A stretch of 55,706 nt of DNA from Ruminococcus sp. GTDB taxonomy: Bacteria > Bacillota > Clostridia > Oscillospirales > Ruminococcaceae. Below the pieces are notes generated by a model. That model saw nothing but the letters and a program-made list of their open reading frames with translations, searched no databases and had not been told where the DNA came from. A program made the position numbers and the translations under genes. Every line of letters starts with the position of its first letter. Within the stretch, counting starts at the first letter, position 1. Of the stretch, positions 4,525 to 17,120 are shown in pieces. The stretch spans positions 1 to 55,706 of the forward strand of contig JAFYFU010000097.1 of NCBI GenBank assembly GCA_017543595.1, written 5' to 3'.

Positions 4525-4553
4525 TTGACAATAACAATTAAATTTGTTATACT
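4525..4553 (+). promoter_or_regulatory. Strong SigA-type promoter for the ABC/DUF5696 operon
   Basis: Perfect TTGACA at 4525-4530, 17-base spacer, TATACT at 4548-4553. The predicted transcription start is near 4560, leaving a leader of about 190 bases before the TTG start at 4751. Confidence 0.8.
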
Positions 4554-4559
4554 TATGGA

Positions 4560-4750
4560 TAAGGATTTATGCAGTTTAGCAAACTGCGTATTTTGGACAT
4601 CGGGCATTAGGCAGCCTGCGTTCATTTGTTCGTGGAAATTTAACATCAGAGGTTGATTTTTGGATTTTGCGGTCTGTGCGGACGTATGCACAAGCCGTCA
4701 TAAGTCTTTATTTTTGTGATTTCACGCAAGGCGGGAAAGGTGGATAATTA
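4560..4750 (+). other. 190-base untranslated leader of the ABC operon with a start-proximal hairpin
   Basis: This gene-free leader begins with a perfect 7-bp hairpin, GCAGTTT AGC AAACTGC (4571-4587), extended by flanking A/T pairs. A second possible pairing, GACG with CGTC, lies around 4680-4700. There is no T-run after the hairpin and no riboswitch core I recognise. The operon's ribosome site (GAAAGGTGG) is at its end. Confidence 0.4.
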
Positions 4751-7708
4751 TTGAATATTAAAAAATTTTACCGAAAACTTGCTTCGGGTGTCTTGTCATG
4801 CATTTTTGCGGTAAGCAGTCTGTCAGGGGCGATTGATGCCTCTGCGGAAAACAATGTTTCTCTCAGAACTTTGAAATCAATGCAGGACGATTATTATTAT
4901 ATAGAACCGATTGATACGGGAATACCCACATACAGCGATTACTATGACGAATACTGCAATGAAAACCGCACCGATGAATCAATTGAAATCATGGGAAAGG
5001 ATTATATATCCTGCGAAAACGGCGATTTTTCAACAGGTTCGTACGGTTCGGAAAATGATGTGAGGGACGATGTACTCATATGGGAAAGCGCAGACGGAGA
5101 AATCACATATTCGGCAGATATCCCCGAAACAGGAATTTACTGCCTTGAAATGAATTATTTTCCGATAGAGTCAAACAGTTCGTCAATAGAACTTTCAATG
5201 TTCATAGACGGGAAAACTCCCTACGATACCGCATCAAGAATAACTCTCGGCAGAGTATGGGTCAACGAAACGGAAATATATACCGATTCAAGGGGGAATC
5301 AGGTGCGCCCCTCACAGATTCAAAAAGGTATGTGGAAAAAAAGCTTTTTCGGAGATATTGACGGGCTTTTCGGAGAACCGCTGTTTTTTTATCTTGAAAA
5401 GGGAGAACACGAAATAAAATTCACTTCCGAAAGAGCGCAGTTCGCAATAGAAAGTTTCAGATTCGGAAATCCAGAAAAAATCAAAACTTATGACGAATAT
5501 GTATCTTCCGTAAATTCTTCCGTATCAAAAGAAAATACACCGTCAAATATTTTCAGGATAGAGGGCGAAAATGCGCTTTACAAATCCGATTCAACGCTTT
5601 ACCCCACATATGACAATACAAGCTATCTCGTTTCACCGTCAGACCCACGGAAAGTAGTTTATAACACTCTCGGCGCAGGCAACTGGAAAAAAGCTTTGCA
5701 GTCGGTTACATGGACTATCCCGAAAGAAGATATAATTTCAGACGGCTGGTATAAAATCGGTATAAAATCCCGTCAGAACCAGATGAGAGGCTTTTACTCA
5801 AACAGAAGAATGTACATTGACGGGGAAATCCCTTGCGAAGAAACAGAACAGTTAAAATTTTACTATGACAATGACTGGAATCTCGTAAGCCCCAAAACAG
5901 AAAGCGGAGATTATATATATGTTTATCTTGACGCAGACAAAGACCATACAGTAACGCTTGAATGTGTTCCCGGAGAAATCGGCGACTATCTCAGGAAACT
6001 CGATGACATTGTTGCGGATTTGAATACATATTACCGCAAGATACTCATGATAACAGGTCCTTCCCCTGACAAGTACACGGATTATTATGTTCATGAAAAA
6101 ATTCCCAATCTCGAAAGCGAATTTCAGAGAATTTCAAAACAGCTTAAAGATGTTCAGGAAGGTATAGAAAATCTTTCGGGTTCATCGGGTTCGGAGGCTG
6201 CGGCTATCGAAACAATGACGGTAATTCTCGACAAATGCGTTAAAAAGCCCCTGAGAATCCCTGATTATCTCTCGCAGATAAAAGACAATATAGCGTCTGT
6301 TTCCGCATGGATAAGGGATTACAGAGACCAGCCCCTCGAAATTGACTATATTGAATTTGCTTCCTGCGACAAGGAATTTTCAAGCTGTAAGGAGAATTTC
6401 GGAAAATCTTTAAGTTTCAGCATGAGTGCGTTTTTCGGCTCATTCTTTGAGGATTACACAACGCTTTCGGACGTTACGGGAGAGGACGCAATAAATGTAT
6501 GGGTTTCCCTCGGACGTGACCAGGCACAAGTAGTAAAGGAAATGGCTGAAAACGAATTTATGCAGGAAACAGGTATCCCCATAGCGGTAAATCTTGTTGT
6601 CGGCGGAGTGGTTGAGGCTACCCTTGCGGGAAAAGGTCCTGATGTTGCATTGTTCCTCGGCGGAGAGTTCCCCGTAAACCTTGCCGCCCGTGATTTGCTT
6701 GTCGATGTTTCGGATTTGTCGGAATTTCCCGATTACCCCGAAGTTGAAAAGCGTTTTCAGGAAAATGCCATGACACCCTATCAGTATAACGGCGGAACTT
6801 ACGGACTGCCCATAAGCCAGACTTTCCCCATGCTTTTTTACAGAACGGACGTACTGACCGAACTCGGCTACAATTCACCGCCCGAAACATGGGAGGATTT
6901 AATTGATATGCTTCCCGCACTTCAAAGAAATTATATGTCTGTGGGACTTATACTTCCGCCTGCAAATATCTCCCCTGCAACGGAGGCGGGTCATACTTTT
7001 TCAATGCTTCTTCTGCAAAAGGGAAAAAATTATTACAATGAGGCACAGACAAAATCAACATTTGACACGATAGAAGCTGTACAGGCTTTTGAGGAATGGA
7101 CGGATTTCTATACAAAATACAGCTTTGTGTAGTCATATGACGCTTTCAGCCGTTTCAGAACGGGAGAATATCCCATAGTGATAGCAAATTATACTTTCTT
7201 CAATCAGCTTGCCGTTGCATCTCCCGAAATAAAAGGCTTGTGGAATTTCTGCCCCGTACCGGGAACAAAAGACAAAAACGGAAATATCTCCCATGCTGCA
7301 AATTCCACGGGTTCGGGAGCGGTTATATTCAAGAAAGTAAAGAACAAGCAAAATGCATGGGAATTTATTAAATGGTTTACCGAAAAAGACACCCAGACGG
7401 AATACGGAACTCAGATAGAAGGACTTCTCGGAACTATGGGACGTTTCGACACCGCAAACATTGAAGCTTTGTCCGAACTTTCATGGTCGCACAGCGAATA
7501 CGACAGGCTTTCCGCACAGCAGAAAGAACTCGTTGAAATCCCCGTCATACCGTCATCTTATGCGGTAACAAGAAATATCATGAACGCTTTCAGGGAAGTA
7601 GTAAACGAACTCGAAAATCCCCGTGATACGCTTATATGGTATAACCGTGACATCAATGACGAAATAACAAGAAAACGTGAAAACCTCGGTCTTGATACCG
7701 AAGAATGA
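4751..7708 (+). pseudogene. Extracellular sugar-type solute-binding protein with N-terminal carbohydrate-binding-like modules, interrupted by in-frame TAG
   Basis: One frame of 985 codons, starting at TTG 4751 (GAAAGGTGG upstream), is broken only by TAG at 7130-7132 (codon 794) and continues to TGA at 7706-7708. Residues 1-32 are a signal peptide ending in DASA-EN. Residues about 60-240 and 265-405 look like beta-sandwich carbohydrate-binding modules. A helical linker follows. From about 560 onward it is an SBP_bac_1-type binding protein; the part after the stop carries RFRTGEYPIVIANYTFFNQL, GLWNFCPVPGT and WEFIKWFTEKDTQ, all expected near the end of such proteins. The binding domain should deliver a glycan fragment to the permeases that follow. 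Normal family members are about 430-560 residues, so this one is a fusion. The stop replaces a Gln, Lys or Glu codon by one base. It is either a recent nonsense mutation or a base error. Confidence 0.85.
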
Positions 7709-7724
7709 AAGGAGGAGTTTGGTT

Positions 7725-8666
7725 TTGGCAAAGCTTTCAGCCGAAAAAACAGGCAAAAAAAGCAGAAAAGAAAAACGCCGTCTGCTATGGCTTTCAGTGA
7801 AAAAAAATAAAGCCTGTTATGCGATGATAGCACCGTTTATGATATTCTTTGTAATATTCACGGTTGTCCCCGTAATAATGTCGCTTCCTATGGGCTTTAC
7901 GGATTTCAACATGGCACAAGCTCCGAAATTCATAGGGCTTTCAAATTACACAACGCTTTTTCTTTCGGACAGAATATTTGTAAAGTCAATAAGGGTAACG
8001 ATAGTTTTTGCACTCTTTACAGGACCTGTAAGTTATATATTGTGTTTTCTGCTTGCATGGCTGATAAACGAACTTCACCCGAAACTCAAAACAGTATTTA
8101 CACTGATATTCTATGCGCCGTCAATGGCGAACGTATATACTGTATGGCAGTTGATATTCAGCGGAGATATGAACGGATATATAAATTCATTTCTTATTAA
8201 TTTGGGGCTGATAAATGCGCCTATACAATGGCTCACAGATGCAAATTATGTTCTGGGAGTAACAATAGTTGTTCAGCTGTGGATTTCTCTCGGAGCGGGA
8301 TTCCTCGCTTTAAGGGCAGGTTTTCAGAATATAGACCGTTCAATGTATGAGGCAGGAGCAATAGAGGGCATAAAGACACGCTGGCAGGAACTTATATATA
8401 TAGTTATCCCGTCAATGGGTCCTCAGCTTATGTTTGCCGCAGTAATGCAGATAGTAAGCTCATTTACGGCAGGAACGGTCGCACAGAATCTTGTCGGTTT
8501 TCCGAGTACGGATTACAGGGCGCACACAATAATGACACACGCCTACGACTACGGCTGGGTGCGCTATGAAATGGGATATTCCGCAGCAATATGCATGATA
8601 TTGTTCATAGTCATGTATATCTTGAATAAGCTGATAAGCCGTGTTCTCAGCAAATACATGGATTAA
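7725..8666 (+). CDS. Sugar-type ABC transporter permease (MalF-like), first pair
   Basis: 313 residues from TTG at 7725, chosen because AAAGGAGG lies 9 bases upstream; the start falls 16 bases after the binding-protein stop. Six hydrophobic helices follow a basic N-terminal tail (KKSRKEKRRLLWLSVKKNK). The cytoplasmic EAA loop that docks on the ATPase is present: YEAGAIEGIKTRWQELIYI followed by VIPSMGP. This is the larger, MalF/UgpA-like half of a permease pair, matched with the next gene. No ATP-binding subunit is encoded in the operon, so it probably uses a shared MsmK/UgpC-type ATPase, as many Firmicute sugar importers do. Confidence 0.92.
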   Translation: MAKLSAEKTGKKSRKEKRRLLWLSVKKNKACYAMIAPFMIFFVIFTVVPVIMSLPMGFTDFNMAQAPKFIGLSNYTTLFLSDRIFVKSIRVTIVFALFTGPVSYILCFLLAWLINELHPKLKTVFTLIFYAPSMANVYTVWQLIFSGDMNGYINSFLINLGLINAPIQWLTDANYVLGVTIVVQLWISLGAGFLALRAGFQNIDRSMYEAGAIEGIKTRWQELIYIVIPSMGPQLMFAAVMQIVSSFTAGTVAQNLVGFPSTDYRAHTIMTHAYDYGWVRYEMGYSAAICMILFIVMYILNKLISRVLSKYMD

Positions 8667-8680
8667 GGGGGTGGGGAAAT

Positions 8681-9562
8681 ATGCAGACAGCAGTAAATAT
8701 TGACAAGATAAAAGGCTCAAACAGACAGGCAGGCAAAAAAATCGGCGGAACTGTTGCAATATTCATATTCCTCGCCGTTCTCGGACTTTTCATGGTATTA
8801 CCCATATATCTGACGGTTGTAATGTCAATAAAGCCCGTTGAGGAATTGTTTATATTTCCGCCAAAATTATATGCAATACGTCCGACTCTGAATAATTTCA
8901 GCGATATGTTTGACGCACTCAACAGCAACAGAGTACCTTTTTCAAGGTATGTATTCAACAGCATAGCCGTTACTGTTTCGGTGACGGTATTGCAGAGTAT
9001 ATTTGCATCAATGGCGGCATTTGTCCTTGCAAAATGCAAGTTCCCCGGAAGCAAATTAATAAACAGCATAATAGTCGTTGCACTTCTCTATCAGAGTAAT
9101 GTAATATACATCATGCAGTATATTGTAATGGCAAAACTCGGACTTATCGACAATCCGCTTGCGCTGGTACTCCCCTCGATAGCCTCGCCTATGGGATTGT
9201 TCCTTATGAGGCAGTCAATAGGTCAGATACCCGATGCCATGATAGAAGCCGCAAAGGTTGACGGCGCAGGGCTTTTCAGGATATGCTGGCAGATAGTTAT
9301 GCCCAATCAGAAACCCGCACTTATGACGCTTGTAATATTTGCTTTTCAGGCGGCATGGAATATCCAGACGGGTACGCTTGTATTTCAGGAACAGTATAAA
9401 ACTCTCCCGACAGTCGTAACTCAGGCGGCATCAGCAGGTCTTGCAAGGGCAGGCGTTGCAATGGCGGCAGCGGTTTTCATGCTTGTACCGCCGATAGTTG
9501 TTTTCATGCTTGCACAGAGACAGGTAATTGAAACAATGGCTCATTCGGGAATCAAGGACTAA
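8681..9562 (+). CDS. Carbohydrate ABC transporter permease (MalG-like), first pair
   Basis: 293 residues with six predicted membrane helices. The EAA motif is MIEAAKVDGAGLFRICWQIV followed by MPNQKP. The start ATG has AAGGGGGTGGGG upstream and lies 14 bases after the first permease. MalG-like features include the early periplasmic region NNFSDMF and the cytoplasmic LAKCKFPGSK segment before the third helix. It forms the heterodimeric channel with the preceding gene. Confidence 0.92.
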   Translation: MQTAVNIDKIKGSNRQAGKKIGGTVAIFIFLAVLGLFMVLPIYLTVVMSIKPVEELFIFPPKLYAIRPTLNNFSDMFDALNSNRVPFSRYVFNSIAVTVSVTVLQSIFASMAAFVLAKCKFPGSKLINSIIVVALLYQSNVIYIMQYIVMAKLGLIDNPLALVLPSIASPMGLFLMRQSIGQIPDAMIEAAKVDGAGLFRICWQIVMPNQKPALMTLVIFAFQAAWNIQTGTLVFQEQYKTLPTVVTQAASAGLARAGVAMAAAVFMLVPPIVVFMLAQRQVIETMAHSGIKD

Positions 9563-9582
9563 GCACGGAAAGGGTGATTTAA

Positions 9583-11190
9583 GTGAAAAAAAGATTTAAA
9601 AAGCTTTTAACGCCGATATTTTCTTTCGTGCTTGGATTGAATTTTCTGACATCTCTCACAGCGTCCGCAGGCGAACCCTATGACGTTTACAATTATGACC
9701 GCTGGGGGGAGGCTATCCCGTCACAGGCGGGATATATCGCAGACAGGGCAGTTTCGGGCTATGATTTGGGAGCAGGTGCGTTTGATAATCCGAACGATAT
9801 ATTTTATGACCACAATGATATCTTTTATATAGCAGATACCAACAATAACAGAATAGTTGCGGTAAATTCGGATTTTGACGAAGTTGTTGAAATATATGAC
9901 AGGTTTAAAATGCCCGACGGTTCGGAAACAACTCTAAAAAAGCCCATGGGAATATTTGTCTCCGCAGAAAATGATTATATGTACATAGCGGATAATGAAA
10001 ATTCCCGTGTACTGATAAGCGACAGGGACGGAAATGTAATAAGCGAAATAACAAAGCCCGTTTCGGAAGTCTATGACCAGAAAAGAACTTTTCTTCCGCA
10101 GAGAGTTATAGCCGACAAGGCAGGAAATGTATATGTAGTTTTAAACAATATAACAACTGATGCGGCAATGTTCAATCCGCAGGGAGAATTTACGGGATTC
10201 TACGGCGCAAACCGTGTACAGCCCACAGCCGAAATAATAGGAAATTATTTTACCAATCTTTTCATATCAGAGGAGAAAAAAGCACGAAGGGCAAGAAATA
10301 TCCCCACGGGTATAACAAGTTTCGATATTGACGGGGATTTTATATTTACCTGCACGCAGTCATCAACGCAGACAACAGATACAGTCAAGAAACTCAATGC
10401 CGCAGGAAACAATATTTTCGCAAATATGGATTTGTCTTTCGGAGATTATACCCCCATGTACGACACTTCTCAGAATAAAGTCTTACAGCCCGCAATATGC
10501 GATATCGACATAGCCGAGGACGGAAATATAAATGTCCTCGATTTCACGACAGGCAGAATATTCCAGTATGACGAGGACTGCAATTTGCTGTTCATAACAG
10601 GTACGATTGCAAAACAGGTGGGTGGTTTTGACCATGTTGCCGCCCTTGAATCAAAAGGAGAAAATCTCTATGTTGTCGATTCAAGCAAAGATACAGTTAC
10701 CGTATTCACCGAAACGGATTTCGGAAAAATAGTCCATAAGGCAACAAGACTGCACAATGACGGCTACTATGAAGAAGCCCTTGAACCGTGGTATGAAGTC
10801 CTCAAACGTGACGGAAATTACAGGAGGGCATATATAGGCGTAGCGTCCGCACTTCTCCGAAAAGGCGACTATGAAGGTTCTATGAAATATTCCGAACTTG
10901 CGGATTCTTCAAGGATTTACAACAAAGCCTTTGAGGGTTACAGAATGAATTATCTGAAAAAGAATTTCGGATTTATCGCCCTGATTGTTATTGTTCTGTC
11001 GGCAGTATTCGTATTTGTAAGCAAAAAACTGCGGAAACGCCGTCTTGCAATTGAAAAGGCAAAACAGGAAGAACAAGACCAGCTTGCCATTCTCGACAGA
11101 CAAATCAGGATTCTCGAAGAAGCCTCCGTATTTGTAAGGGGCGGTCAGAATGACAATGACGAAAACGAAAAGGAGGAAAAGTGGATATGA
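9583..11190 (+). CDS. Secreted NHL-repeat beta-propeller protein with TPR-like region and C-terminal membrane anchor
   Basis: 535 residues from GTG 9583 (AAAGGGTGA upstream). Residues 1-29 are a signal peptide ending TASA-GEP. Residues about 60-370 hold NHL-type propeller blades (FYIADTNNNRIVAVNSDF, MYIADNENSRVLISDRDGN, NLYVVDSSKDTVTVF). Residues about 380-440 read as two TPR-like helix pairs (GYYEEALEPWYEVLKRDG, GDYEGSMKYSELAD). A single membrane helix (GFIALIVIVLSAVFVFV) near 464-480 is followed by a basic, coiled-coil-prone cytoplasmic tail. NHL propellers usually bind proteins or glycans. In this operon the extracellular part is a candidate organiser or ligand-contact surface; the exact role is not known. 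Confidence 0.82.
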   Translation: MKKRFKKLLTPIFSFVLGLNFLTSLTASAGEPYDVYNYDRWGEAIPSQAGYIADRAVSGYDLGAGAFDNPNDIFYDHNDIFYIADTNNNRIVAVNSDFDEVVEIYDRFKMPDGSETTLKKPMGIFVSAENDYMYIADNENSRVLISDRDGNVISEITKPVSEVYDQKRTFLPQRVIADKAGNVYVVLNNITTDAAMFNPQGEFTGFYGANRVQPTAEIIGNYFTNLFISEEKKARRARNIPTGITSFDIDGDFIFTCTQSSTQTTDTVKKLNAAGNNIFANMDLSFGDYTPMYDTSQNKVLQPAICDIDIAEDGNINVLDFTTGRIFQYDEDCNLLFITGTIAKQVGGFDHVAALESKGENLYVVDSSKDTVTVFTETDFGKIVHKATRLHNDGYYEEALEPWYEVLKRDGNYRRAYIGVASALLRKGDYEGSMKYSELADSSRIYNKAFEGYRMNYLKKNFGFIALIVIVLSAVFVFVSKKLRKRRLAIEKAKQEEQDQLAILDRQIRILEEASVFVRGGQNDNDENEKEEKWI

Positions 11191-11816
11191 TGGATTTAAA
11201 GCCCGCTGAATGGGTCAGACACGCAGTATGTCACCCTGTTGAGGGATTTGAAGATATGCGCTGGAAAAAATCAGGCTCTGTCAGAACAGCCTTTTTGATA
11301 GTATTTCTTCTTTTCGTTGCACAGGTGGCAAACGGCAGGCTTTACGGCTTTCAGTTCGGAGTTACCTATGACAAGACATTCAATATAATTCCCTATATAG
11401 TGCAGAGTATAATTCTTTTTGCTGCATGGGTGGTGGGCAACTGGTCTGTATGCACACTCCTTGACGGTGAGGGAACTATGAAGAATATCTGCATATACAG
11501 CGCATATGCACTTGTGCCTTATATTGTTCAGGTATTTGTAAATCTCATACTTTCGCATATTCTTGTGCGTGATGAAGCTGTATTCATTCAGGCGATAAGC
11601 ATAATAGGGACGGGCTGGACGGCGATACTGCTTTTCTCGGCGATAAAATCCGTTCATCAGTATTCTTTCGGAAAGACCGTATTTGCAATAATACTGACAA
11701 TAGTCGCTATGTTTATAATGCTTTTCCTGCTTGTTCTTTTCATGTCGCTCGTACAGCAGGTATATATATTCATCTCGACTATATATACGGAAATTTCTTA
11801 CAGAATAAGAGTATAG
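11181..11816 (+). CDS. Yip1-family integral membrane protein
   Basis: 211 residues, overlapping the NHL gene by 10 bases, so translation is probably coupled. The N-terminus is cytoplasmic and contains AVCHPVEGFEDMRWKKSGS, the typical P-x-x-GF-x-x-hR/K start of bacterial Yip1-domain proteins. About five hydrophobic helices follow, with the conserved NWSVCTLLDGEGTMKNI and SAYALVPYI stretches. Bacterial Yip1 proteins have no settled function. They recur beside sugar ABC permeases and large secreted proteins in Clostridia and Paenibacillus (recalled from memory), consistent with this setting. The gene ends in TAG, showing that TAG works as a stop here. Confidence 0.82.
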   Translation: MDMMDLKPAEWVRHAVCHPVEGFEDMRWKKSGSVRTAFLIVFLLFVAQVANGRLYGFQFGVTYDKTFNIIPYIVQSIILFAAWVVGNWSVCTLLDGEGTMKNICIYSAYALVPYIVQVFVNLILSHILVRDEAVFIQAISIIGTGWTAILLFSAIKSVHQYSFGKTVFAIILTIVAMFIMLFLLVLFMSLVQQVYIFISTIYTEISYRIRV

Positions 11817-11832
11817 AAACGGCGGTGACATT

Positions 11833-14679
11833 ATGTTGAAAAAATTAAAAAGATTTCTTCTCTGTCTGCTTGCCGTTTCAGCTTTGAGTATGTCGGGAAC
11901 GATTTACGCAGATGACGAGGAAGAAAATTATTCGGATACGGAAATATCGGAGGATTCCGAAAACGGCGAAAAACAGGAAAAAGCCTCAAAAATGAAAGAA
12001 TCTGTCGAAAAAGTCGAACTTACGGAAGAACAGGCTGAAAATCTCCTCGAATATACGGGCGAAATTGACGGCTTTGACATATACAGGGTGAGCAAGGACT
12101 ACAAGGATAAAATATGGGAGGCTCACGGCGGTCAGCCCGATAAAAAAGCAGAACTCACGGAAAAACAGCAGAAAGAAAAAGAACTCGCAGAAGAAGAAAT
12201 AGATATCGTTAAAAAACTCGGCGAATTTGTCGCTGTTGACCCATATAAGGGAATTGCTGTCGCCTCTTTTGAAAAAGGGAAAAAATCCGCTGACGGGAAA
12301 ATTTATCTCAGTGAAGGCGGAAGATTTCTCCTGACAGTGAATGAAGATTCGGGTAAACCCCTGAAAATAATGCAGGTCGTTTCAACCGTAGATGACCCTT
12401 ATGTTTTCAGAAGTATCAACAATCAGACAATGGAACTCATGGACGATGATTTCAAAGAAACCGTAAGAGTTTATTACAAGGGCGGAGTTTTCAGGGATAT
12501 GCAGATGTATTTCGCAGATGATGAGAAAAATGTCATCTGGCTTTCAAGGGACGGCTCGCAGGTTCTCGGCGTTTTCAGATATGCCTTTGAAAATGACAAG
12601 CTACGCATGATTGTTGACGACAGAAAAGGAACTTTCGGAATTGAAAATATGGAAACAAAATATATATGGTGGTCATCTCCTCTCGGTGTAACAAGGGACA
12701 GAATTGCAACTCCCCTGCTTGTAAATGAACTGCGTTCCTCAAATATGCTGAGATACGGCATACCCGAAAAGCGTTCAAACAACAGCGTACTGCGTTCGGG
12801 AACGGACGACTGCAAAATAAAAGTTTCCGATATTAAAAACGGCATAAAAATTGAATACAATTACGAAAAGGCGGGATTTAAATTTCCCGTTGAATATACA
12901 ATTGAAGATGACCACCTGAAAGCAAGCCTTAAAAAAGACGATATTCAGGAGACAAACCCCGAAAATATCGCAACGGAACTCACTGTTATGGGAAGTTTCG
13001 GCGCAGGCTCGGAAAATGAGGAAGGATATTTCGTGATTCCTGACGGAAGCGGTGCGCTCGTGAGATTCAACAACAACAAAACTATGGACACAAATGCCTA
13101 TACGCAGAGAGTTTACGGAAATGATGTCACAGCCGTTCCGACAAGCAAAGGTGCTGTCACGGAACAGATATATCTCCCCGTATACGGAATAGTCAAGCAG
13201 GACAATGCCATGCTTGTAATTGCGTCAAAAGGCGATTCAAACGCATATCTTACAACTCAGGTTTCAAGGCAGTCAAACAGCACTTACAATCTTTGCAGTT
13301 TTACTTTTATGCTCAGAAATACCGATACTTTCTATATGTCGGGAAACAACAGCGACAAAATAACTGTCTTTGAAAGAGGAGATATCAAATCGGACGATAT
13401 CGAACTTTTATATTATCCCATTTCAAAGGAAAATGCGGACTATGTTGATGTTGCCGAAAAATACAGGGAATATCTCATGTCACGGCAGAGAGTAACCAAA
13501 AAAACAAAATCAGAAAATGCACCCATGTATGTAAGCCTTTACGGAGGCACGGAAAAGAAAAAACCCGTTCTCGGAATACCCGTCACTATGAAACAGGCTG
13601 TTACAAAATATGACGAGGCAGAAGAAATTTTAAATTCGCTGAAAACAAACGGCGTTGAAAATATGGTTGTCACATATAACAACTGGACTGATGACGGAAT
13701 AAAAAATCAGATAGACAAAACCGCAAAGCCTTCCGATACTCTCGGAGGAAAAAGCAGTTTCAAGGATTTCAAAAAATTCACAGGCGAAAACAATATAAAG
13801 CTTTATCCCGTATCCGACAACAGGGATTTCTATTCGGGAAACGGATATTATTCCTTCACCGATACGGCGGTAAGGGTTTCGGGGGCTTATTCAAGAATAA
13901 TAAGCTATGACAGGGCTTACGGAATACCTGACGGATTCAAGAAAAATATGTCCCTGCTTTCACCAGACTGTTTTGCAGATGTATTCGGGAAGATTTCCGA
14001 AAGCTATGTAAATGCGGGGCTTTCGGGAGTTTCTGCGGGAAACCTTACAACTTCCCTCTACGGCGACTACGGCAAAAAGAATATTTCAAGGCACAAAGCC
14101 ATGATTCTTGAAACGGAAGTCTATCAGAAATTAACCGAAAAGCTTGCGGACGGTATTCTTGCGGACGGCGCAAATGCCTATGCCCTGCCCTATGTCAGCC
14201 ATATAACGAATGTCCCTGTGACATCAAGCAGATTTGACCTTTTCAATGAGGATATACCCTTTTATCAGATAGTAATGCACGGTCTTGTCCCCTATTCGAC
14301 AACGGCGGTAAACGGTGACGCTGATTCGGAAAATCTCCTGCTTATGGCTGCCGCTACGGGAAGCTGTCTGAATTACGATATGATTTATGAGGAAACAAGT
14401 ATTCTCAAAGATACGGAATTTGATGTTTATTATTATGCGAACTATGCAAACTGGATTGAAACCGCCTCCGCAGAATATAAACTCTTACAGCCCGTTCTCG
14501 AAAATGTCAGCGACAGCACAATCACAGGCTATAAAGCCGAAAATGACGGAAAATACATAACGACAAGCTATTCAAACGGCACTGTCACAAAAGTCGATTT
14601 TGAAGAAAAAACCATTGATTTCAACGGGAAAATCATTGACCTTAAAGATTATGATAACAAGGGAGGTGTACAGTTCTGA
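11833..14679 (+). CDS. Large secreted DUF5696-like protein, possible glycan-active enzyme
   Basis: 948 residues with a signal peptide at 1-26 (LLAVSALSMSGTIYA-DD) and an acidic, charged linker after it. The middle part (about 395-560) is beta-rich (YFVIPDGSGALVRFNN, QIYLPVYGIVKQDNA). The C-terminal half has alternating alpha/beta character like a TIM barrel (NGVENMVVTYNNWTDDG, NNIKLYPVSDNRDF, NAGLSGVSAGNL, PYVSHITNVP). The layout resembles glycoside hydrolases of the barrel type, but no catalytic pair can be assigned by eye. I recognise it as DUF5696-like from its size, architecture and operon company. Its stop overlaps the next permease start (TGATG), so it is tightly linked to transport. 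Function inferred: surface capture or processing of a glycan. Confidence 0.75.
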   Translation: MLKKLKRFLLCLLAVSALSMSGTIYADDEEENYSDTEISEDSENGEKQEKASKMKESVEKVELTEEQAENLLEYTGEIDGFDIYRVSKDYKDKIWEAHGGQPDKKAELTEKQQKEKELAEEEIDIVKKLGEFVAVDPYKGIAVASFEKGKKSADGKIYLSEGGRFLLTVNEDSGKPLKIMQVVSTVDDPYVFRSINNQTMELMDDDFKETVRVYYKGGVFRDMQMYFADDEKNVIWLSRDGSQVLGVFRYAFENDKLRMIVDDRKGTFGIENMETKYIWWSSPLGVTRDRIATPLLVNELRSSNMLRYGIPEKRSNNSVLRSGTDDCKIKVSDIKNGIKIEYNYEKAGFKFPVEYTIEDDHLKASLKKDDIQETNPENIATELTVMGSFGAGSENEEGYFVIPDGSGALVRFNNNKTMDTNAYTQRVYGNDVTAVPTSKGAVTEQIYLPVYGIVKQDNAMLVIASKGDSNAYLTTQVSRQSNSTYNLCSFTFMLRNTDTFYMSGNNSDKITVFERGDIKSDDIELLYYPISKENADYVDVAEKYREYLMSRQRVTKKTKSENAPMYVSLYGGTEKKKPVLGIPVTMKQAVTKYDEAEEILNSLKTNGVENMVVTYNNWTDDGIKNQIDKTAKPSDTLGGKSSFKDFKKFTGENNIKLYPVSDNRDFYSGNGYYSFTDTAVRVSGAYSRIISYDRAYGIPDGFKKNMSLLSPDCFADVFGKISESYVNAGLSGVSAGNLTTSLYGDYGKKNISRHKAMILETEVYQKLTEKLADGILADGANAYALPYVSHITNVPVTSSRFDLFNEDIPFYQIVMHGLVPYSTTAVNGDADSENLLLMAAATGSCLNYDMIYEETSILKDTEFDVYYYANYANWIETASAEYKLLQPVLENVSDSTITGYKAENDGKYITTSYSNGTVTKVDFEEKTIDFNGKIIDLKDYDNKGGVQF

Positions 14680-15596
14680 TGACGGACAACAAAAAAACAG
14701 GGAGAAAACTTCCCTATGAAAAACGCAAGGCTTTGTACGGCTACGGGTTTATATCCCTGTGGCTTGTCGGAACGGTTTTCTTCTTTCTTATCCCACTGAT
14801 AAAATCCCTCTGGTACTCTTTCAACGAAGTATCAATAGGAACTCAGAAAATGGTGACCGAATGGGTCGGACTCGGCAAGTACGAATATGTTCTCAATGTG
14901 GACGAACACTACACGGAATATCTGAAAGATATGCTTGTCGAAACGCTCTGGAAAACTCCTCTTGTACTGATATTTTCGCTGTTTATAGCGGTTATACTCA
15001 ATCAGAAATTCAAGGGGAGAACCCTCGCAAGGGCAATATTTTTCCTGCCCGTAATAATTGCCACCGGACCTGTATACAAGATAATCAACGGCGATATGAG
15101 TTCAACGGGAAATACGGGTGCGGCACAGTTTTCAACCATGTTTTCAACCGATTTGGTGGGAGAGCTTTTGCAGTTTCTCGGCATATACGGTCTCAGCGAC
15201 AATATGAGCAGTATGATTTCCACAATAGCCGACAATATTTTCGGAATCGTCTGGTCAAGCGGAATACAGATACTTATATTTCTTGCGGCTTTGCAGAACA
15301 TTCCGCCGTCCGCAAAAGAGGCTGCACAGGTTGAAGGCGCAACGGCATGGGAATATTTCTGGAAAATAACTTTCCCGTATGTAAGCCCTTTTATCCTTGC
15401 AAATCTCATATTCACGGTAATAGACTCTTTTACAAGTCCCACAAATACAGTCATGAAACGTATTCTCGCCATGAAAGAGGACTGGAAATTCGGAGAAGCC
15501 TCCGCTATGGCATGGATATATTTTCTGATAGTTCTCGGTGCAATAGGACTTATAACCGTCACAGTAAATAAATTGATTTACTATGAAGTAGACTGA
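14679..15596 (+). CDS. Sugar-type ABC transporter permease (MalF/UgpA-like), second pair
   Basis: 305 residues. The ATG overlaps the DUF5696 gene stop (TGATG) with GGGAGG upstream. Six helices are predicted. Family landmarks are PLIKSLWYSFNEV near residue 38, LARAIFFLPVIIATGPVY, and the EAA loop AKEAAQVEGATAWEYFWKIT followed by FPYVSP. It differs clearly from the first permease (7725-8666) in sequence, so it is not a recent duplicate. It pairs with the next gene. Only one binding protein is seen for both pairs. Confidence 0.92.
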   Translation: MTDNKKTGRKLPYEKRKALYGYGFISLWLVGTVFFFLIPLIKSLWYSFNEVSIGTQKMVTEWVGLGKYEYVLNVDEHYTEYLKDMLVETLWKTPLVLIFSLFIAVILNQKFKGRTLARAIFFLPVIIATGPVYKIINGDMSSTGNTGAAQFSTMFSTDLVGELLQFLGIYGLSDNMSSMISTIADNIFGIVWSSGIQILIFLAALQNIPPSAKEAAQVEGATAWEYFWKITFPYVSPFILANLIFTVIDSFTSPTNTVMKRILAMKEDWKFGEASAMAWIYFLIVLGAIGLITVTVNKLIYYEVD

Positions 15597-15609
15597 GGAG
15601 GTGCGGTTT

Positions 15610-16626
15610 ATGGCTGAACTTACAGATATTTTAAAATCCGACAAGCAAAAGCTGAAAGAAAAAAAAGAGGCTCAGAAAATCCGCATAAAAACTATGTCAA
15701 GCCGTGAGAGGTCTTATCTCAGGAAAAAAGTCTTTGCCGACAAAATATGGGTTTTTTTCAGGTTTGTGATACTTTTCGGTCTGGGATTCGTTATTCTCTA
15801 TCCGCTTATATACATGGTAAGCTGTACTTTCAGGGAAAGAACCGATATGAATGACCCTACCGTAATGTGGATTCCGAGAAATTACACGCTCAATATCCTG
15901 AAAGAAACAATAGTTGCCATGGATTTCCGGAATACTCTCGAAACAACGCTTGTGCTGAATATAGGCTGTTCTCTGGTTCAGGTAGTATCCTGTGCGATAA
16001 CGGGATACGGCTTTGCAAGGTTTAAATTCAAGGGAAAAGGTATCTTGTTCGGAATAGTTATCATGATGATACTTGTCCCCACACAGGTCATATCCCTGCC
16101 CTTGTATACGCAGTTCAGGTTTTTCGGAATAGGAAACCTGACAATGAATTTAATCGACACAAAAGCGACAATGTATCTGCCTGCACTAACCGCAAACGGA
16201 ATACGTTCGGGGCTTATGATACTGATATTCAGGCAGTTTTTCAAGGGACTGCCGAAAGAACTCGAAGACGCTGCCTATATAGACGGCTGCGGACCTTTTA
16301 TGACTTTTGTGAGAGTAATGGTACCAAATGCGGCATCATCATTTCTCACGGTATTTCTTTTCTCTGTTGTGTGGTACTGGAATGACTACTATGTAAGCGC
16401 AACTTTTTTCACAAATACAAAGACAATCGCCCTTATGCTCCAAAATCTTGACACGGAACTCAAATTAAGGCTTTTCAATTCCGCAACGGTTGAAATATCT
16501 CCCCGTGAACAGATTGTCTGGAAAGAGGCAGGCTGTCTTATGTCAATAATGCCTATTCTCGTGCTTTATACCTGTTTGCAGAAATATTTCACGGAAGGTA
16601 TCGAAAGAAGCGGTCTTGTCGCATAA
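15610..16626 (+). CDS. Carbohydrate ABC transporter permease (MalG-like), second pair
   Basis: 338 residues from ATG 15610. A GTG nine bases earlier lies inside the ribosome site (TGAGGAGG), so ATG is preferred. A long basic N-terminal tail (about 50 residues, KQKLKEKKEAQKIRIK) precedes the first helix, unusual for MalG-like proteins. The EAA loop is LEDAAYIDGCGPFMTFVRVM followed by VPNAAS. It forms the channel with the preceding permease. Last gene of the operon; a strong terminator follows at 16681. Confidence 0.92.
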   Translation: MAELTDILKSDKQKLKEKKEAQKIRIKTMSSRERSYLRKKVFADKIWVFFRFVILFGLGFVILYPLIYMVSCTFRERTDMNDPTVMWIPRNYTLNILKETIVAMDFRNTLETTLVLNIGCSLVQVVSCAITGYGFARFKFKGKGILFGIVIMMILVPTQVISLPLYTQFRFFGIGNLTMNLIDTKATMYLPALTANGIRSGLMILIFRQFFKGLPKELEDAAYIDGCGPFMTFVRVMVPNAASSFLTVFLFSVVWYWNDYYVSATFFTNTKTIALMLQNLDTELKLRLFNSATVEISPREQIVWKEAGCLMSIMPILVLYTCLQKYFTEGIERSGLVA

Positions 16627-16680
16627 AATTTATCTATCACTGATTTTTCAGAGACAGATTATTACAAGTAAGATATAAAT

Positions 16681-16713
16681 AAGCGTGAACTTTGAAGTTC
16701 ACGCTTATTTTTT
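16681..16713 (+). terminator. Terminator of the ABC/DUF5696 operon
   Basis: A perfect 12-bp stem, AAGCGTGAACTT TG AAGTTCACGCTT, is followed by ATTTTTTT. The stop codon of the convergent XRE gene (16705-16707) lies at its 3' edge. Confidence 0.9.
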
Positions 16714-17070: not shown

Positions 17071-17113
17071 TCATTTTTATGAGTAAAACCTCTTGACATT
17101 TTCATAAAAATGA
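17071..17113. promoter_or_regulatory. Paired dyad operators between the XRE gene and the peptide gene
   Basis: TCATTTTTATGA (17071-17082) and its exact reverse complement TCATAAAAATGA (17102-17113) are 31 bp apart, centre to centre. The right copy lies in the spacer of the rightward promoter. The left copy lies in the spacer of a weak leftward promoter (TTTACT, 16 bases, TATGTT on the minus strand). This is the arrangement expected of operators for the adjacent XRE protein. Confidence 0.65.
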
Positions 17114-17120
17114 GTATAAT
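17093..17120 (+). promoter_or_regulatory. Promoter toward the 29-residue peptide gene
   Basis: Perfect TTGACA (17093-17098), 16-base spacer, perfect TATAAT (17115-17120). The spacer contains the TCATAAAAATGA dyad. The leader to the peptide start is about 160 bases and AT-rich. A second TATAAT near 17225 has no clear -35 box. Confidence 0.75.

Follow-up and report, generated by a model that had tools for sequence, protein, structure and literature searches.

A conserved Ruminococcus operon predicted to encode two sugar importers together with propeller/TPR, Yip1 and GH129-fold accessory proteins

The DNA studied here is a 55,706-nucleotide stretch of a Ruminococcus sp. genome (contig JAFYFU010000097.1 of assembly GCA_017543595.1), hereafter the window, which carries on its + strand at 4751-16626 an operon of eight consecutive genes separated by gaps of at most 20 nt or by short overlaps. 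According to Pfam, these genes encode a solute-binding protein (SBP), four permeases (BPD_transp_1), an NHL protein, a Yip1 protein and a DUF5696 protein, with no ATP-binding cassette (ABC) ATPase family found among the eight; gene arrangement and missing ATPase alike agree with an earlier reading of the sequence alone (the original prediction). The operon is real and deeply conserved, the same genes occurring together in many other Bacillota. We consider it reasonably probable that it encodes two CUT1 importers accompanied by constant accessory proteins, and that in Ruminococcus SBPs encoded away from the operon feed the second of them.

In this model, the first importer would comprise permeases 1 and 2 with the operon's SBP, which bears carbohydrate-binding modules (CBMs), and permeases 3 and 4 would form a second importer supplied by SBPs encoded elsewhere (two of them on contig C18 of the same genome). 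The NHL beta-propeller/tetratricopeptide-repeat (TPR) protein and the Yip1 protein would together make up one membrane-anchored scaffold outside the cell, and the secreted GH129-fold DUF5696 protein may trim or hold glycan side chains prior to import. The genome's one MalK/MsmK-type ATPase would power both channels, and the cargo would likely be plant cell-wall oligosaccharides, i.e., those derived from xylan or beta-glucan. Sugar import by this predicted CUT1 system, as well as the pairing of unlinked SBPs with permeases 3 and 4, is deduced from sequence.

Conservation of the eight-gene unit

Conservation was followed in two sets of loci: (i) 60 loci, of which 26 are from the same genus, 11 from the same family or order and 23 from the wider class or phylum, and (ii) 80 named loci, partly from the same genomes as the first set. 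In the 60-locus set, the order SBP, permease 1, permease 2, NHL, (Yip1), DUF5696, permease 3, permease 4 was complete in 25/26 genus loci (the exception, L069, is cut), in 11/11 family/order loci and in 16/23 class/phylum loci; with 36/37 genus/order loci thus complete, the central genes are conserved together, as the original prediction needed them to be. The other seven class/phylum loci have the two halves of the unit swapped (L111, L115 and L117), are cut (L109), or hold the second half (NHL-Yip1, DUF5696, permeases 3 and 4, and a second SBP) without the first (L105, L106 and L110). These last three loci suggest that the two halves can be transcribed separately. Separate regulation of the permease pairs in relatives had been named beforehand as a finding that would count against a single machine, and these three loci bear it out in part. 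Of the 80 named loci, 64 carry the complete unit and 15 run into a sequence edge; the remaining one, L168 (R. flavefaciens 007c), lacks permeases 1 and 2, its SBP gene directly meeting the NHL gene (4850-9362).

At the level of genomes, DUF5696 was matched in 35/35 sampled congeners, exactly once in 33 of them, and above cut-off in none of 14 named control genomes. A 398-genome sample of the phylum gave 46 genomes with a match at E 0.001, comprising 37 strong cases (E <= 1e-100, the window's own genome included) and nine that were weak or partial. All 37 strong cases also encode the N-terminal domain of the operon's SBP, in G161 as a contig-edge piece only, which supports conservation as one unit. 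Conversely, G162 and G212 possess a strong match to this domain without DUF5696, and seven more genomes have partial matches to that domain. Copy number of the two halves is equal in 37/39 genomes, a count that scored only three candidates per genome and whose eight 3:3 cases are not relied on.

Two permease lineages and their binding proteins

All four permeases of the window exceed the Pfam BPD_transp_1 cut-off. A tree covering 16 of the 60 loci together with 20 further permeases divides MalF-side from MalG-side proteins and resolves each of the four permeases as one clade; the two pairs are thus old, separate lineages, in keeping with the two divergent MalF/MalG-like pairs first described from the sequence. 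The EAA loop pattern was matched in permeases 2, 3 and 4; permease 1 was unmatched, but an EAG variant is visible.

As for the motor, the window's genome encodes one protein with a MalK OB domain, on another contig, and exactly one OB_MalK protein was found in 14/14 genomes tested that carry the eight-gene unit (the cassette), never adjoining it. Parts of a study of Caldicellulosiruptor (Anaerocellum) bescii report that MsmK is common to its CUT1 importers and that cells deleted for msmK grow less well on oligo- and polysaccharides (PMC8579813). Given this single MalK/MsmK-type ATPase elsewhere in the genome and the shared MsmK of Caldicellulosiruptor, an operon without an ATPase is ordinary, and it is likely that a shared MalK/MsmK-type ATPase, as anticipated, would drive this importer in the present organism.

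The SBP genes beside the cassette differ by taxonomic distance. When a same-strand match to our own SBP profile no more than 3 kb away is taken as the criterion, a second SBP lies beside the unit in 20/23 class/phylum loci (in nine of them directly after permease 4) versus 0/37 genus/order loci. On contig C18 of the window's genome, which gave no permease match, two divergent SBP genes lie close together and flank one small gene. The SBP tree, of 85 domains (left out were L280 and two short L104 open reading frames [ORFs], which offered no usable domain, and the cut 313-aa L254), joins the two C18 proteins with the second SBPs on a branch supported at 95/94. That side of the tree holds 29/34 unlinked SBPs and 27/31 second SBPs; the other side holds all nine SBPs beside another permease pair and all 11 cassette SBPs. 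At E 1e-20, at least one SBP of the C18 clade is present in 34/36 genus genomes, the window's own included, and the two genomes without one are 73-74% complete. Hence the single SBP of the original prediction is correct for the locus and probably not for the genome.

Genome G056, of the same order, extends this pattern. The stretches fetched from it contain 22 SBP genes without a permease (L241-L255 and L258-L260), and of the 21 placed in the tree, 20 make up a single clade within the second-SBP group. Its 12 permease matches comprise four within the cassette and a fifth on the cassette contig, three singles, a pair next to an SBP on C17, and a pair on C59, where there is no SBP_bac_1 match; a PF01547 match on C21 lies outside the SBP set, and a match on C55 (L256) is unrecognised by our SBP profile. 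With about 20 unlinked SBPs in one genome, a bolder version of the model can be put forward tentatively, as possible rather than probable: a composite importer in which two CUT1 channels, joined by the propeller/TPR-Yip1 scaffold and with the GH129-fold protein at the surface, act as a fixed hub for many interchangeable unlinked SBPs.

At L104 (10525-18093), tandem SBP genes follow permease 4, four of them placed in the tree and two being shorter overlapping ORFs. Elsewhere in the window's own genome (contig C33, L205:30-7030), another CUT1-like permease pair lies near an 814-aa binding protein and a 549-aa protein resembling a membrane-fusion adaptor.

Several observations sit poorly with the proposed dual importer. 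Five of the 34 unlinked SBPs (L208, L250, L264, L265 and L266) fall on the other side of the tree, L208 being an own-genome SBP without a permease neighbour, as do 4/31 second SBPs, two of which are contig-cut cassette SBPs. Some genus/order loci (e.g., L063) are short beyond one end, and any second SBP at that end may have escaped notice. An SBP1-like protein is absent at E 1e-20 from 12/14 order-level genomes that match DUF5696, which leaves room for SBP sharing in those genomes, and L168 keeps its SBP without permeases 1 and 2 at the locus, as if this SBP could serve permeases 3 and 4. The families around the unlinked SBPs of G056 are mixed and include few glycosidases (among families listed, 25 of 84). 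Finally, the DUF5696 barrel has no invariant acidic residue, and its enzyme activity is uncertain.

Some of these points would suit a scheme in which a single CBM-bearing SBP serves both permease pairs as alternative channels within Ruminococcus and its order, a possibility raised by the original prediction; so would the genus/order loci, where no second SBP was found next to the unit. We regard this as unlikely, since in most loci outside the order a different SBP neighbours permeases 3 and 4, and since unlinked SBPs of that same clade, including two in the window's genome, are kept in nearly all genus genomes. Still less probable to us is that the two importers handle unrelated cargo and have only a promoter in common, NHL-Yip1 and DUF5696 being tied to the second. 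The loci with a lone second half and those with swapped halves are what such independence would produce, but the SBP N-domain of the first half is found in 37/37 strong-DUF5696 genomes, in several of them on other contigs.

A different doubt concerns the window's own SBP gene, which is interrupted by an in-frame TAG that the original prediction overlooked. The TAG column, placed by its surrounding motif in an alignment of 59 relatives that did not include the window, is invariant. Moreover, the SBP gene is present in 68/80 named loci, in four of which it is cut by a contig end; the other 64 copies are all uninterrupted, and the window's copy is thus a point lesion or an assembly error; recoding of the TAG was also considered and set aside. 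Both the invariant position and the intact relatives could be taken to mean that the operon is decaying and its first importer no longer works; yet the other seven genes are open and conserved, and in a draft assembly of 127 contigs one wrong base may explain the stop, making decay as improbable in our estimation as unrelated cargo. We therefore retain the dual importer with unlinked SBPs as the preferred account.

Accessory proteins, coordinates and signals

The modular SBP foreseen by the original prediction is borne out: SBP_bac_8 matches both pieces of the interrupted gene (SBP_bac_1 only the second), and a profile of 20 relatives shows that its N-terminal modules resemble CBM35/6. Cassette SBPs mostly have no recognised lipobox by a crude test made from the first possible start codons, a test that missed at least one likely lipobox (L095). 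Under a strict motif, only 5/11 other SBPs and 11/30 second SBPs pass, so that the contrast between cassette SBPs and others depends on the loose test.

The predicted propeller/TPR membrane-anchored protein is supported in all its parts, with a propeller at about residues 36-377, TPR helices at 379-440 and a membrane helix at 462-480. Likewise, the Yip1 domain (PF04893) of the next gene scores 55.9 bits against a cut-off of 28.6. The two proteins are fused in 17/61 loci and separate in 44, and are absent from none; this fusion argues that NHL and Yip1 proteins may function together.

The DUF5696 protein matches its Pfam family and begins with a signal-peptide-like segment, as expected of the secreted barrel-like protein first proposed. 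Structural alignments place its barrel in the GH129 glycosidase fold, at 13-15% identity to NagBb (5wzn) and ZgGH129 (5opq). A sequence profile matched five PDB sequences of GH129 proteins (E 1.6e-11 to 9.8e-8); among the structures, we take the 5wz* entries to be GH129, and 8rzk was assigned to GH129 from its title. In an alignment of 41 rows, D745 is Asp in 34, and position 841 has Glu in 33 rows and Ala in the remaining eight, the window included. The window's genome is R. flavefaciens-like: among 584 confirmed named relatives of its DUF5696 protein, the best 80 are mostly Ruminococcus records. No viral relatives of DUF5696 were confirmed. Genome G045, of the same order, has six DUF5696 genes in 1.8 Mb, several within full cassettes.

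Coordinates are collected in Table 1. The strong terminator of the original prediction holds up as a hairpin followed by a T run. Its strong promoter survives as a consensus match and nothing beyond that, promoter-like matches in the region numbering 53 versus 38 expected by chance. Downstream of the operon, window positions 17093-17120 match the sigma-70 consensus perfectly (12/12). No known RNA family reached its gathering score in the window.

Table 1. Features of the operon and its flanking signals (positions in the window)
Feature	Position	Strand	Basis or remark
Promoter-like site, TTGACA-17-TATACT	4525..4553	+	Consensus scan only, 11/12 positions
CUT1 SBP, N-terminal CBM35/6-like modules and coiled coil	4751..7708	+	Pfam; 20-relative profile
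SBP ORF pieces split by TAG	4751-7132 and 7178-7708	+	
In-frame TAG in SBP gene	7130..7132	+	Column invariant in 59 aligned relatives
Permease 1 (MalF side)	7725..8666	+	BPD_transp_1; orthologues one clade, 100/100; start codon taken as TTG at 7725
Permease 2 (MalG side), EAA loop present	8681..9562	+	BPD_transp_1; one clade, 100/99
NHL beta-propeller/TPR protein, one membrane helix, signal-peptide-like N-terminus	9583..11190	+	Pfam NHL
Yip1-family membrane protein	11181..11816	+	PF04893, E 6.3e-15; several hydrophobic stretches
DUF5696 protein, signal-peptide-like N-terminus, GH129 fold at residues 249-944	11833..14679	+	
Permease 3 (MalF side), EAA loop present	14679..15596	+	BPD_transp_1; one clade, 100/100
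Permease 4 (MalG side), EAA-like loop present	15601..16626	+	BPD_transp_1; one clade, 98/99
Terminator-like hairpin, 15 pairs, then T run	16677..16710	+	

Relation to known import systems

No paper on this gene set was evident among the literature matches listed, and the word DUF5696 was absent from the literature searched. The nearest published parallel is in C. bescii, whose operon xloEFG-X-GH129-axoFGE-xynF... responds to xylan and Avicel according to parts of PMC8579813, and which belongs to a xylan degradation locus running from Athe_0174 onward (passages of PMC8579813 and PMC12285236). Its xloEFG-X-GH129-axoFGE portion appears to be the same unit as the window's operon. XynR binds the operator of that published locus with a Kd of 161 nM (an excerpt of PMC12285236). 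Athe_0181, the expected axoE should gene numbering follow gene order, is listed in part of PMC5865380 as one of the binding proteins with the highest specificity for complex substrates. Our locus L113 (genome G334), which from its gene order is probably Caldicellulosiruptor, encodes an SBP, permeases 1 and 2, a 716-aa NHL-Yip1 fusion, DUF5696, permeases 3 and 4, and two SBPs, with a further gene read as GH43-like. The surface capture and import of a complex glycan, as originally proposed, fits the reported xylan and Avicel response of this like-ordered operon.

Less direct hints point the same way. In a Pfam tally covering 99/176 flanking ORFs of non-genus loci, LacI-type regulators number six (among families listed), and GH3, GH26, GH43 and GH8 appear in two to three each (among families listed, 25 of 140), a set suggestive of plant glycans, if not decisive. 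In Paenibacillus O199, GH129 and CBM35 proteins were seen only on crystalline cellulose, as stated in part of PMC4867992; these would fit, although that part does not allow their identity with the present genes to be confirmed.

With DUF5696 in every sampled congener, the unit may be central to plant oligosaccharide uptake by these fibre degraders. If the model is true, it would define a conserved double importer that includes a scaffold and a GH129-fold component, give a role to DUF5696 as well as to bacterial NHL-Yip1 proteins, and offer a direct test of one importer serving many unlinked binding proteins.

Set against known systems, the unit combines familiar and unfamiliar traits. The C. 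bescii locus resembles it by name, in the portions of the reports describing it, with an SBP and two permeases, gene X, GH129, and two permeases, the position of X being that of the 716-aa NHL-Yip1 fusion in L113; there, however, an SBP of its own (axoE) adjoins the second pair and xylan genes lie downstream, whereas the Ruminococcus loci show no adjacent second SBP. Within those passages (PMC8579813 and PMC12285236), X goes unnamed and the unit is not treated as conserved across the phylum. Compared to GH129 glycosidases, the DUF5696 protein differs in being encoded inside a transporter operon and in its low identity. CUT1 importers that share MsmK/MsmX likewise have an SBP and two different permeases without an ATPase in the operon, but the window's operon adds a second permease pair, a propeller/TPR-Yip1 module, a GH129-fold protein and a CBM-bearing SBP. 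Lastly, part of PMC12838199 describes several SBPs with one transporter for Athe_0597/0598; the likeness would lie in the several SBPs per channel, with the extra SBPs of the Ruminococcus system unlinked and, in G056, numbering about 20.

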